In this document: one piece after another, positions 15,161 to 20,337 of the stretch
Layout of the letters: the number at the start of each line of letters is the position of its first letter
Numbering within the stretch: the first letter of the stretch is position 1
Assembly: GCA_913061165.1 (NCBI GenBank)
Contig: CAJXTJ010000009.1
Span: forward strand, 1-33,976
Source of the DNA: an uncultured Polaribacter sp.
GTDB lineage: Bacteria > Bacteroidota > Bacteroidia > Flavobacteriales > Flavobacteriaceae
Reading direction: 5' to 3'
DNA length: 33,976 nt
Translations under genes and position numbers: made by a program
Notes under the pieces: generated by a model
Databases searched by the model: none
Told to the model about the DNA's origin: nothing
The model's input: the letters and a program-made list of their open reading frames with translations, nothing else

Positions 15161-16624
15161 CTAATTTTTTAACTGGTTAAAACAATTTTTCACTTCTTCT
15201 AAATCATCAAAATGAGCACGAACGCCATTTATCTCTTGATAATCTTCATGTCCTTTTCCTGCAATAAGTATAATATCTCCTACTTCAGAAAGTTTACAAG
15301 CCGTTTTAATTGCTTGTCTTCTATCTAAAACTGTCAATGTTTTTCTATAGTTTTCTGAGGAAACACCAACTTCCATTTCATCTAAAATAGTTTGCGGATT
15401 TTCTGTTCTTGGATTGTCTGAAGTAAAAATTGCCTGACTACTTAATTGCGAAGCAATATTTGCCATTTTTGGTCTTTTTGTCTTGTCTCTATCGCCACCA
15501 CAACCTACTACTGTGATTACCTTTTCGTTACCTGTTCTAATATCATTAATAGTTTCTAATACATTTTTTAATGCATCTGGCGTATGTGCATAATCTATAA
15601 TTGCTGTAATTCCATCTTCTGAAATTACATATTCGAAACGTCCACTTACGCTTTCTAATTCGCTAATAATTGTTAATGTTTCTAATTTCTCTAAACCCAA
15701 CAATTCTGCGGTTGCAATAATTGCAGTTAGGTTATAGATATTAAAAACACCTATAAGCTTTGTCCAAACTTCGGTTCCATCCACAGAAATTAAGGTACCA
15801 GAAAGTTGTTTTTCTAAGATCTTCACCTTAAAATCTGCCAATGTTTTTAAAGCATATGTTTTCTTTTTTGCCTGGGTATTTTGCAACATAAAGTTGCCGT
15901 TTTTATCATCGATATTTGTTAATGCAAATGCCGATTTTGGCAATCCATCAAAAAATTCTTTTTTTACATTTCTATATGCTGCAAACGTTTGATGATAATC
16001 TAAATGGTCATGCGAAAGATTTGTATAAATACCGCCAGTAAAAACCAATCCTTCTGTTCTTTTTTGATGAATACCGTGAGAACTAACCTCCATAAAGCAG
16101 AAATCTACACCGGCGTCAATCATTTTATCTAGATACCCATTAATCGTTATAGAATCTGGTGTTGTGTGGGTTGCCTTAAATTCAACATCATCTACCAAAA
16201 CTTTAACAGTAGACAACAACCCTACTTTATACCCTGCCATCTTAAATAATTGATATAAGAGTGATGCTATGGTAGTTTTACCATTTGTACCTGTAATACC
16301 TATCAAAGGTATTTTAGAAGAAGGGTTATCGTAAAAATTTGAAGCCATAACTGCCAGAGCAGTATTTGCATCTACCACTTGAACGTATGTAATTTCGTCT
16401 TTCTGCGTTTCAGGAAAGTCTTCACAAACAATTACAGTAGCACCTAAATCTATGGCCTTGTTTATGTATAAATGTCCATCAACAGAAACTCCTTTTTGAG
16501 CAATAAAAATATCTTCATTTTCAATTTTTCTAGAATCGAAAACAAGATTTTTTACGGCTACGTTTGTAGCACCAAATACTTTAGTAATTGCAACCTTATA
16601 TAATATGTCTTTTAAGTTTTTCAG
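15161..16624 (-). CDS. murE: UDP-N-acetylmuramoyl-tripeptide synthetase MurE, 487 aa; proposed start is a CTG codon at 16624-16622. The ORF-track start at 16378 is internal
   Basis: [26 protein letters not shown]. The open frame continues upstream: (L)[94 protein letters not shown], a typical MurE N-terminal domain, with no in-frame ATG/GTG/TTG before it. Confidence 0.93.
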
Positions 16625-16625
16625 A

Positions 16626-18641
16626 CTATGATAATTTTAGGGTGATTGTATTTCCTTTTACTAATTTTTCTCCTTTTTTTAAAGATTGATATTTTACTTT
16701 ACCAACTCCAGAAATTTCAACTTTTAATCCAATATTTTCTAATAAAGACAATGCATCCATACCAGACATCCCTTTAACATTTGGAATTTGTGTATGGCTT
16801 TTACTCAATACATCATCATACGTTGCGTATTGCATTTCGATTTCTTCAAAACTTGCTTTATCTTCTACAGATTGATTGTCTACAGGAGTTGTTGTATAAA
16901 TTTTTTGAGCAATTTCTTTAAAAACAGGTCCAGCAACGGTTGCACCATAATATCCTTTTTCCTTTTTAGGATCATGAATTACCACAATACAAGAATATTT
17001 AGGATTCTCTGCAGGAAAAAAACCTACAAATGAAGCTACGTAGTGTTTGTTAGAATATCCTGCAGCCACTGTGTTGCCATTTTCGTCTTTATATTTAGGA
17101 AGGTATTTTTTAGCAGTTCCTGTTTTTCCTGCCATAGAAAAATTTGAAGAATAGATATTATTTGCAGTTCCTCTTACAACTACATTTTCTAGTACTTTTC
17201 TAATTTTACTTAAAGTTTCATCAGAAGCAATTTTGGGGTTAACAACTACAGTTTCAAAAACTTTCTCTGTTTTATCTTGTCTTCTTAGCTCTTTAATAAA
17301 TCTAGGTTTTACCATTATACCGTTATTTGCAACAGCATTATAAAACATTAAGGTTTGCATTGGTGTAACCGAAACTCCGTACCCCCAAGACATCCATTCT
17401 AAAGAAATTTTATTCCATCTTTTATCTGATGGTATAGGCACTACAGGTCTTCCCTCTCCTTTAATAGGGAAACCAATTGCCTTTGTAAATCCGTATGTTT
17501 CTAATTTCTTAATAAATTTTTCTGGCTGATGATCGTAATGCTTTTTAATTAACTTCACAACGCCCACATTAGAGGAAACCTCAAAAACTCTTGCGGCAGA
17601 AATCTTACCATAACCACCTCGATGAGAATCTTCTACCTTAGAACCGTGAATAAAAATTTTACCTTTCTCTGTATCTACAACTGTAGAAGTATCAATAAAT
17701 TTATCATCTAAAGCAGCCATTAAGCTTGCCAACTTAAATGTAGAACCAGGCTCATGACTTTCCCATACCGCATAGTTTCTCTTTTCGTAATACTTTCCTT
17801 TTTTAGTTCTACCTAAATTAGAAATTGCTTTAATTTCTCCGGTTGCAGTTTCCATAACCACCGCACAACCATGATCTGCTTCAAAATACTCTAACTTTCT
17901 TAAAAGTGCATGATGCGTAATATCTTGAATATTCACATCTATCGTTGTAATAATATCATGCCCATCTATTGGTTCTTTTTCATTAAAGTCGGTAATTGGT
18001 TTCCATTGATTTTTAGCAATTTTTTGTTCCCATCTTAATCCATTTTCACCTTGCATATAATCTGCAAAAGCCCCTTCTATTCCTGCTTCACCTCTAAAAT
18101 CGTCATAACCAATAGTTCTCTCGGCTATCTTACCTATAGGGTGTGCTCGTTCCGTTCTGTGCTTTGCAATAAAACCACCCTTATACACCCCCAAATTAAA
18201 AATTGGAAATTTCCTCATTTTTAAATAATCTGTGTATCCAATATTTCTAGCAATTAAGAAATACCTTCTTTTTCTATTTTTTGCAGTCCTTAATTTTTTC
18301 TGATAATAACTAGATGAATTCCCTAGCATTTTCGAAAGTTCATTTGACAAACTCACAATATTCTCTTCAAAAATCGTATTATCTACCGTAACTAAATCCA
18401 TGAAAATATTGAATTTAGACATCGAAGTTGCAAGTAGATTTCCGTCTGCCGCATATACATTGCCTTTATTTGCGTAAATAGTGTCTTGCCTAACCGTAAG
18501 TTCTGTGGCTAGTTCTCTATAGGCATCTCCTTGAACGTACTGAAGATTAACAACTCTTAAAATAATAGCTAATAAAAACAACGTCATAAAAGCACCTACT
18601 AAGTAGAATTTCGTTAAAATGCTTTTTTTGTGAGTTGCCAA
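16626..18641 (-). CDS. ftsI: Penicillin-binding protein, FtsI/PBP3 class B transpeptidase with C-terminal PASTA domain
   Basis: SxxK in EPGSTFKLASL, SSN, AGKTGTAKK; C-terminal PASTA-like IPNVKGMSGMDALSLLENIGLKVEISG. Confidence 0.96.
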   Translation of the reverse strand: MATHKKSILTKFYLVGAFMTLFLLAIILRVVNLQYVQGDAYRELATELTVRQDTIYANKGNVYAADGNLLATSMSKFNIFMDLVTVDNTIFEENIVSLSNELSKMLGNSSSYYQKKLRTAKNRKRRYFLIARNIGYTDYLKMRKFPIFNLGVYKGGFIAKHRTERAHPIGKIAERTIGYDDFRGEAGIEGAFADYMQGENGLRWEQKIAKNQWKPITDFNEKEPIDGHDIITTIDVNIQDITHHALLRKLEYFEADHGCAVVMETATGEIKAISNLGRTKKGKYYEKRNYAVWESHEPGSTFKLASLMAALDDKFIDTSTVVDTEKGKIFIHGSKVEDSHRGGYGKISAARVFEVSSNVGVVKLIKKHYDHQPEKFIKKLETYGFTKAIGFPIKGEGRPVVPIPSDKRWNKISLEWMSWGYGVSVTPMQTLMFYNAVANNGIMVKPRFIKELRRQDKTEKVFETVVVNPKIASDETLSKIRKVLENVVVRGTANNIYSSNFSMAGKTGTAKKYLPKYKDENGNTVAAGYSNKHYVASFVGFFPAENPKYSCIVVIHDPKKEKGYYGATVAGPVFKEIAQKIYTTTPVDNQSVEDKASFEEIEMQYATYDDVLSKSHTQIPNVKGMSGMDALSLLENIGLKVEISGVGKVKYQSLKKGEKLVKGNTITLKLS

Positions 18642-18643
18642 TT

Positions 18644-18973
18644 TTAATTATCTTTATAGGTTACTTTTATTTTTTTTGGTGGAGTTTCTGAAGGTCTTAA
18701 ACCTCTATATATTGCTTTCTCCCGAATACTAGACTCCATTTTCATTCTCATTAAAATAGTACCAGTATCTATATACTCTGCCCTTAATTCTCGCTTCAAT
18801 TTATTTAATTCTGCAATTTTTATTACTTTCTGATCTGATTTGTGCGAACTAGAAATCATTACTAATAAGAGCCCAACTACAAAAATAATAATGCGCCAAT
18901 TTTTAAAAGCAGACTCATCTGTAAGGAAACTTCCTCTTAAAAAGCCGTAAACTCTTTTTTTAACTTTAGACAT
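18644..18973 (-). CDS. ftsL: FtsL-like cell division protein
   Basis: Small bitopic protein with one TM then a coiled-coil-like stretch, between rsmH and ftsI. Confidence 0.82.
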   Translation of the reverse strand: MSKVKKRVYGFLRGSFLTDESAFKNWRIIIFVVGLLLVMISSSHKSDQKVIKIAELNKLKRELRAEYIDTGTILMRMKMESSIREKAIYRGLRPSETPPKKIKVTYKDN

Positions 18974-18977
18974 CTTA

Positions 18978-19883
18978 TTACTTTTTCCTTTTTAGAGTAG
19001 CAATTCTAAGTTTTGCACTTCTAGATCTATTATTTACTTTTATTTCGGCTGCTTTTGGCACCATCAACTTTCCTACTTTCTCCATAGGAACTTCTATATT
19101 TCCAAAAACATCTTTTTCCGGTTCACCAACAAATAACCCTGTTCTAATAAACCTTTTTACTAATCTATCTTCTAAAGAATGATAGGAAATAACACTTAAC
19201 CGTCCTTCTTTATTTAATAAATTTGGCATTTGCATAAGAAACTCCTTCAAGACCTCTAATTCTTCATTTACCTCAATTCTAATGGCTTGAAATATCTGTG
19301 CTAATATTTTATGCGCTACCGCATTGGGTAAATATTTTTGTAAAGCGTCTTTTAACTGAAAGCTTGTTTCAATTTTTTCTTCTTGTCTTTTTTCTACAAT
19401 CGTTTTTGCAATATTTTTTGAGTTCCTTAACTCACCATATAAAAACAAGATCTCTGCTAATTTTTCTTCAGAGTAACCGCTAATAACCTCCTTTGCGGAA
19501 ATTTTAGATTTCTGATTCATTCTCATATCTAAGTCACCATCAAAACGAGTAGAAAAACCTCTTTCTCCCTCGTCAAATTGATGAGAAGAAACACCTAAAT
19601 CTGCTAAAACTCCGTCTACTTTTTTTACACCGTTAAACCTTAGAAATCTAGAGATATATCTAAAATTCTCTGGAATCAGCGTAAAACGAGCATCATCAAT
19701 TACATTCTCTAATGCGTCTGGATCTTGATCAAAACCAAATAACCTTCCGTTTTTACCAAGTCTACTCAAAATCTCTCTTGAATGACCTCCGCCACCAAAC
19801 GTAACATCTACATAGACACCGTCTTCTTTAATAGCTAAGGCATCTATACTTTCTTTTAATAAAACCGGACTATGATAATTCAT
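18978..19883 (-). CDS. rsmH: 16S rRNA (cytosine1402-N4)-methyltransferase RsmH
   Basis: HSPVLLKESIDAL, DVTFGGGGHSREIL, GVLADLGVSSHQFD, ISYHSLEDRLVKRF. Confidence 0.97.
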   Translation of the reverse strand: MNYHSPVLLKESIDALAIKEDGVYVDVTFGGGGHSREILSRLGKNGRLFGFDQDPDALENVIDDARFTLIPENFRYISRFLRFNGVKKVDGVLADLGVSSHQFDEGERGFSTRFDGDLDMRMNQKSKISAKEVISGYSEEKLAEILFLYGELRNSKNIAKTIVEKRQEEKIETSFQLKDALQKYLPNAVAHKILAQIFQAIRIEVNEELEVLKEFLMQMPNLLNKEGRLSVISYHSLEDRLVKRFIRTGLFVGEPEKDVFGNIEVPMEKVGKLMVPKAAEIKVNNRSRSAKLRIATLKRKK

Positions 19884-20337
19884 CTAATTCTTTATTTCCC
19901 ATTACCTCTTCTGCCAAGTCAGCAAAATCTATAGCAGCAGCATCAATTGCCTTTTCATAGTTCTCTTTATCCCAAATTTCTACGATATTCAACGCAGAAG
20001 ACAAAACAACTTGTTTTTTTATTCCAGCGAACTCAGATAAATCTTTAGGAATTAAAACCCTACCCGCAGCATCAAATTCAACGATTTTTACACCTGCTGT
20101 AAATCTTCTAATAAAATCATTGTTCTTTTTAATAAACTTATTCAGTTTATTAACTTTAACCATCATTAAATTCCACTCTTCCATAGAATACAATTCTAGG
20201 CAAGGTTGAAAAACAGCTCTTTTTATTACAAATCCCTCATTTAAAATTGGTTGCAACTGCTTTTTAAGCGCGGATGAGAATAGCACCCTACCTTTCGCAT
20301 CTGCGGTACATTCATATGTCCCAATTAAATTTATCAC
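19870..20337 (-). CDS. mraZ: Transcriptional regulator / division protein MraZ
   Basis: LIGTYECTADAKGRVLFSSALKKQL, duplicated AbrB-like DAAGRVLIPKDL; first gene of the dcw cluster. Confidence 0.96.
   Translation of the reverse strand: MINLIGTYECTADAKGRVLFSSALKKQLQPILNEGFVIKRAVFQPCLELYSMEEWNLMMVKVNKLNKFIKKNNDFIRRFTAGVKIVEFDAAGRVLIPKDLSEFAGIKKQVVLSSALNIVEIWDKENYEKAIDAAAIDFADLAEEVMGNKELDELS

Follow-up and report, generated by a model that had tools for sequence, protein, structure and literature searches.

The ftsI–murE junction

Where does translation of murE begin in this Polaribacter lineage, given that the part of the gene encoding the N-terminal domain is preceded by no canonical start codon? 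The window, that is the whole stretch of 33,976 nucleotides that was analysed, was read directly at the junction of ftsI and murE. On the minus strand the junction runs CTA AAA TTA TCA TAG T CTG AAA AAC TTA AAA GAC ATA TTA TAT, and the following features are relevant:

15161..16624, minus strand: murE, full coding sequence (with the very probable CTG start) for UDP-MurNAc-tripeptide ligase, 487 residues plus stop; PF01225, PF08245 and PF02875; NF001126
16622..16624, minus strand: CTG, very probable start codon of murE; same codon in 64/110 genomes of the genus, NTG in 110/110
16604..16609, minus strand: murE codons 6–7, GAC ATA; synonymous-site constraint across Flavobacteriaceae
16379..16624, minus strand: N-terminal 82 codons (Mur ligase N-domain), lost with a start at GTG 16378; PF01225 only in the long form
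16625..16628, minus strand: ftsI stop codon TAG (16628–16626) and the 1-nt spacer T (16625); the A of the stop is at −3 of the CTG
16626..18641, minus strand: ftsI, penicillin-binding protein with transpeptidase, dimerisation and PASTA domains; TTG start in 20/20 syntenic relatives

The order TAG–T–CTG at 16628–16622 is thus as the first-pass annotation had given it. The murE frame is open from the CTG (16624–16622) down to the stop codon ending at 15161. Going upstream from the CTG, the frame holds four open codons (AGT, CAT, TAT, AAT) and then a TAA, and in the window sequence no ATG, GTG or TTG lies in frame between this TAA and GTG 16378, in agreement with the earlier statement that none precedes the N-domain. 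GTG 16378 is the first canonical in-frame start, and the mechanical list of open reading frames begins murE there, 82 codons late. The protein sequence that had been quoted for the 82 missing residues was found exactly at this position.

The MurE protein and its N-terminal domain

The protein started at the CTG matched PF01225, PF08245 and PF02875 above the Pfam cut-offs, so that all three domains were found. With NF001126, the NCBIfam equivalog for MurE, the long form scored 615.7 bits (cut-off 373) and covered profile positions 2–484 of 486; the form started at GTG 16378 covered only positions 84–484 and lost the PF01225 match entirely. The solved MurE structure 4bub aligned to the CTG-started protein from residue 3 on. 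The N-domain of MurE carries the binding site for UDP-MurNAc. Only one match to murE and its N-domain was found in the genome, which argues against a second murE supplying the function.

A short MurE translated from GTG 16378 would use the first canonical start in the frame, but it would be a protein without the whole Mur ligase N-domain in a genome with no second murE match. Moreover, the position of the first canonical start differs between genomes: in the 64 with the CTG (see below) it is scattered from codon 8 to codon 123. We consider a start at GTG 16378 highly improbable. Gene callers restricted to ATG, GTG and TTG lose as many as 122 residues from the N-terminus of MurE, at a place that differs from species to species.

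Conservation of the CTG codon among relatives

We searched 168 genomes of the same GTDB genus, together with named genome records, for the N-domain. The first codon of murE could be aligned for 110 genomes of the genus and was CTG in 64, TTG in 42, GTG in three and ATG in one. The column is therefore NTG in 110/110 genomes, with CTG replaced only by other start codons; being NTG without exception, it evolves as a start codon does. Among the named isolates, Polaribacter sp. Hel1_85 (L035) and P. aestuariivivens (L039), for instance, carry the CTG; murE begins with TTG in P. glomeratus (L034) and P. irgensii (L036). In other Flavobacteriaceae the gene begins with ATG, GTG or TTG, and the N-domain, too, is conserved in the family. 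In none of the 64 CTG genomes was a canonical start found upstream of the CTG.

The first-pass annotation had left two alternatives, a rare CTG start or a single-base error in an ATG. The former is strongly supported by the comparison. For an error, with ATG or TTG as the real codon, it could be said that the window stems from a draft genome of 230 contigs and that a single base decides; however, the same CTG is present in 63 other genomes, including complete genomes of isolates and near-identical metagenome-assembled genomes (MAGs) that were assembled independently, which excludes this explanation. In the comparison of the junction with close relatives that had been proposed as a check, the two nearest genomes, MAGs from other surveys (L031, L033), also have the CTG, and the arrangement STOP-N-CTG is found in 64/64. 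The counterpart in relatives is mostly TTG instead of the ATG that had been assumed, so that the likely change is TTG to CTG.

The murE genes of the CTG genomes have a GC content of 32%, and among their internal leucine codons (2757 codons) CTG accounts for 1.7% and TTG for 17.8%. At the start position, CTG occurs in 64/79 members of the clade described below, against this 1.7% inside the gene. The spacer base varies (G in 25, A in 25, T in 13 and C in one of the 64 genomes), as does the ftsI stop (TAA or TAG). Since spacer and stop vary, and CTG is rare internally yet constant at the start, the codon is neither free nor an ordinary leucine codon; these sequence comparisons indicate that it is maintained and not drifting.

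Two further readings bear on the same column. An FtsI–MurE fusion, made by readthrough of the stop or by a programmed frameshift, would fit the abutting genes and the four open codons above the CTG. Yet in relatives the two genes are not in a constant frame to each other (spacers of 0, 1 or more nucleotides, or an overlap), and a fusion has no need of a first codon that is always NTG or, here, a rare leucine codon. Such a fusion is hardly credible. Alternatively, initiation might occur at another near-cognate codon, for instance the ATA at codon 7, which is present in 64/64 CTG genomes and nearly invariant in the family. However, ATA is almost as invariant in the TTG and GTG relatives, which have a canonical codon 1; L4 and D6, upstream of the ATA, are conserved; and it is the NTG column at codon 1 that behaves as a start. 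We rate initiation at such a codon as very unlikely. Overall, murE in this lineage very probably starts at the CTG at 16624–16622, and the comparison shows a codon with the behaviour of an evolutionarily maintained start.

Origin of the CTG start

A tree of the MurE proteins was built without the first 12 residues, so that the start columns were excluded. All CTG genomes fell in one Polaribacter clade of 79 (SH-aLRT 98) containing 64 genomes with CTG, 14 with TTG and one with ATG; the branches adjoining the clade have TTG or GTG starts. The minimum number of changes between CTG and other codons on this tree was 12, mostly reversions to TTG. The ancestral start was probably TTG, and the distribution is most likely explained by one change from TTG to CTG at the base of the clade, followed by several reversions to TTG.

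A family-wide pattern search of 400 genomes found no murE with CTG beyond the clade; the pattern demanded GACATA at codons 6–7 and a 1-nt spacer, and CTG in other settings could be missed by it. Matches to the CTG pattern in other genera were rejected because the genes were not murE. The same search found STOP-N-TTG ahead of murE in further genera, five of which were confirmed.

Spacing and proposed coupling to ftsI

In 64/64 CTG genomes exactly one nucleotide separates the ftsI stop from the CTG, on the same strand. Spacing differs in six members of the clade; murE begins with TTG or ATG in each of these, and with CTG in none. Accordingly, CTG is found in 64/73 genomes with 1-nt spacing and in 0/6 otherwise (Fisher 1.8e-5); this p-value is uncorrected for kinship and overstates the association, as the spacing changed in only about three independent events. 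An A at −3, contributed by the TAA or TAG, is likewise present in 64/64 CTG genomes, and is not independent evidence since any start with a 1-nt spacer receives it from the stop codon. At −6 the CTG genomes have C or T and thus lack the A that is a second positive determinant. RNA structure at the ftsI–murE junction did not exceed that of shuffled sequences (z = 0.09), and no Rfam matches were obtained in the window.

Bacteroidetes initiate without Shine-Dalgarno (SD) pairing, and an A at −3 raises translation in F. johnsoniae (PMC6847099). CTG initiates translation in E. coli, though at a lower rate (Hecht 2017, as cited in PMC13068326). Of 14 overlapping gene pairs tested in other prokaryotes, 13 were strictly coupled (PMC6728339). 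Against this background we propose that the initiator tRNA would read the CUG as (formyl-)Met, so that MurE would have its normal length, with 487 residues. Reinitiation at this codon would most likely be by ribosomes or 30S subunits coming directly from termination on ftsI, and the A of the stop codon at −3, where an A is known to favour translation in Flavobacterium, may assist them. With a weak start, expression of MurE would be tied to translation of FtsI, as a fraction thereof.

The termination–reinitiation coupling suggested in the first-pass annotation is plausible and is in part supported by the strict STOP-N-CTG spacing; the dependence itself is what we infer. From the gene arrangement and the spacing, we think it rather probable that the start of murE is coupled to translation of ftsI. 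The competing view, in which the CTG is an ordinary, weak and uncoupled start and STOP-N-CTG reflects mere compactness, is less probable. In its favour, Bacteroidota lack SD signals, the operon is compact, and the association of CTG with spacing, with its about three independent events, is confounded by kinship. Against it stand the strictness of the spacing and the frequency of strict coupling among the tested pairs. A stronger version of coupling is offered tentatively. STOP-N-CTG might be a dedicated reinitiation signal, with the CUG read only by ribosomes fresh from ftsI termination, so that MurE would be strictly slaved to FtsI; the CUG would then be kept in tens of species since precursor synthesis and septal cross-linking would fall out of balance if the start were stronger or independent.

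Comparison with known systems

The start codon of infC in E. coli is AUU. To our knowledge, murE is not autoregulated by IF3, nor would this be expected, unlike the case of the infC-type rare starts. In Listeria, infC (ATT) and rnhC (ATC) are likewise non-canonical starts that evolution keeps in important genes, and a weak start of this kind can set the dose (PMC13068326); the present case differs in being a CTG, in Polaribacter murE, and in lying directly behind an upstream stop. Coupled gene pairs (PMC6728339) share with ftsI–murE the start at the upstream stop, the common pathway of both genes and the dispensability of an SD sequence in Bacteroidetes. In contrast to those pairs, murE has a 1-nt gap in place of an ATGA or TGATG overlap, as well as a CTG start, and the arrangement is the ground for proposing coupling. 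The murE genes of other Flavobacteriaceae have the same junction with ftsI and the same protein N-terminus, and STOP-N-TTG recurs in five or more additional genera, but the start is TTG, GTG or ATG and not CTG.

No report of a CTG-started murE was found in the open-access literature. Rare bacterial start codons are already known as a kind; what is notable here is that the codon is conserved in an essential gene. In a start-codon survey of Listeria, all rare starts, whether non-canonical or flexible, made up less than 0.3% of core open reading frames (PMC13068326); it is unusual for an essential single-copy gene to keep a CTG start in at least 64 species. The junction offers a natural system for probing reinitiation by SD-less Bacteroidota ribosomes and the strictness of start selection after termination.

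Other starts and early codons in the dcw operon

Twelve other dcw genes were examined in 20 syntenic relatives, and no CTG start was found among them. In these genomes mraZ starts with GTG (19/20), ftsI with TTG (20/20), and ftsA, ftsL and mraY with ATG (20/20 each). Across the genus, the GTG start of mraZ and the TTG start of ftsI (window positions 16626–20337) are as strongly conserved as the ATG starts of other genes in the operon. The conserved identity of the start codons points to start strength as one factor in dose setting along the operon, with murE as the extreme case. A 200-kb scan of four complete relatives for conserved coding above the first canonical start returned mostly antisense-frame noise, and murE was the sole clear case of gene length accepted by eye.

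Codons 6–7 of murE are GAC ATA in 98% of the genus genomes (backgrounds 12% for GAC and 23% for ATA) and in 94–98% of other Flavobacteriaceae, whereas GAT and ATT are strongly preferred in the background. As a control, the first dozen codons of other dcw genes were examined; their mean divergence was 0.74 bits, versus 0.38 for all columns, and strong early constraint was also seen in ftsZ, ftsI, mraY and murD. No second exact copy of the GAC ATA motif was found in the genome. GAC ATA was therefore dropped as a murE-specific element of the mechanism; as other dcw genes are similarly constrained, early synonymous constraint may accompany SD-less starts in general. Where Asn, His or Ser replaces the aspartate at codon 6, the codon ahead of the ATA usually retains a final C.

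The mraY gene (15155–15150, minus strand) begins ATG CTG, although CTG makes up about 2% of leucine codons; codon 2 is CTG in 82/131 genus loci (some genomes are counted twice) and in 24/58 other Flavobacteriaceae. The serines at codon 2 of ftsZ (start 6822, minus strand) and codon 7 of ftsI are encoded by AGC in all relatives that have Ser there, and AGC makes up 5% of serine codons. Finally, some Polaribacter genomes have replaced or extended N-termini (e.g. VLPFGKDLGWA, PLGERG) in murC (L236, L240, L244, L245, L247, L248), ftsW (L236) and murD (L238, L244, L249, L251). Those of murC look as if translated from the palindrome-like repeat CCTTCCCTTTGGGAAGG, as though an intergenic repeat had been absorbed into the start of the gene.
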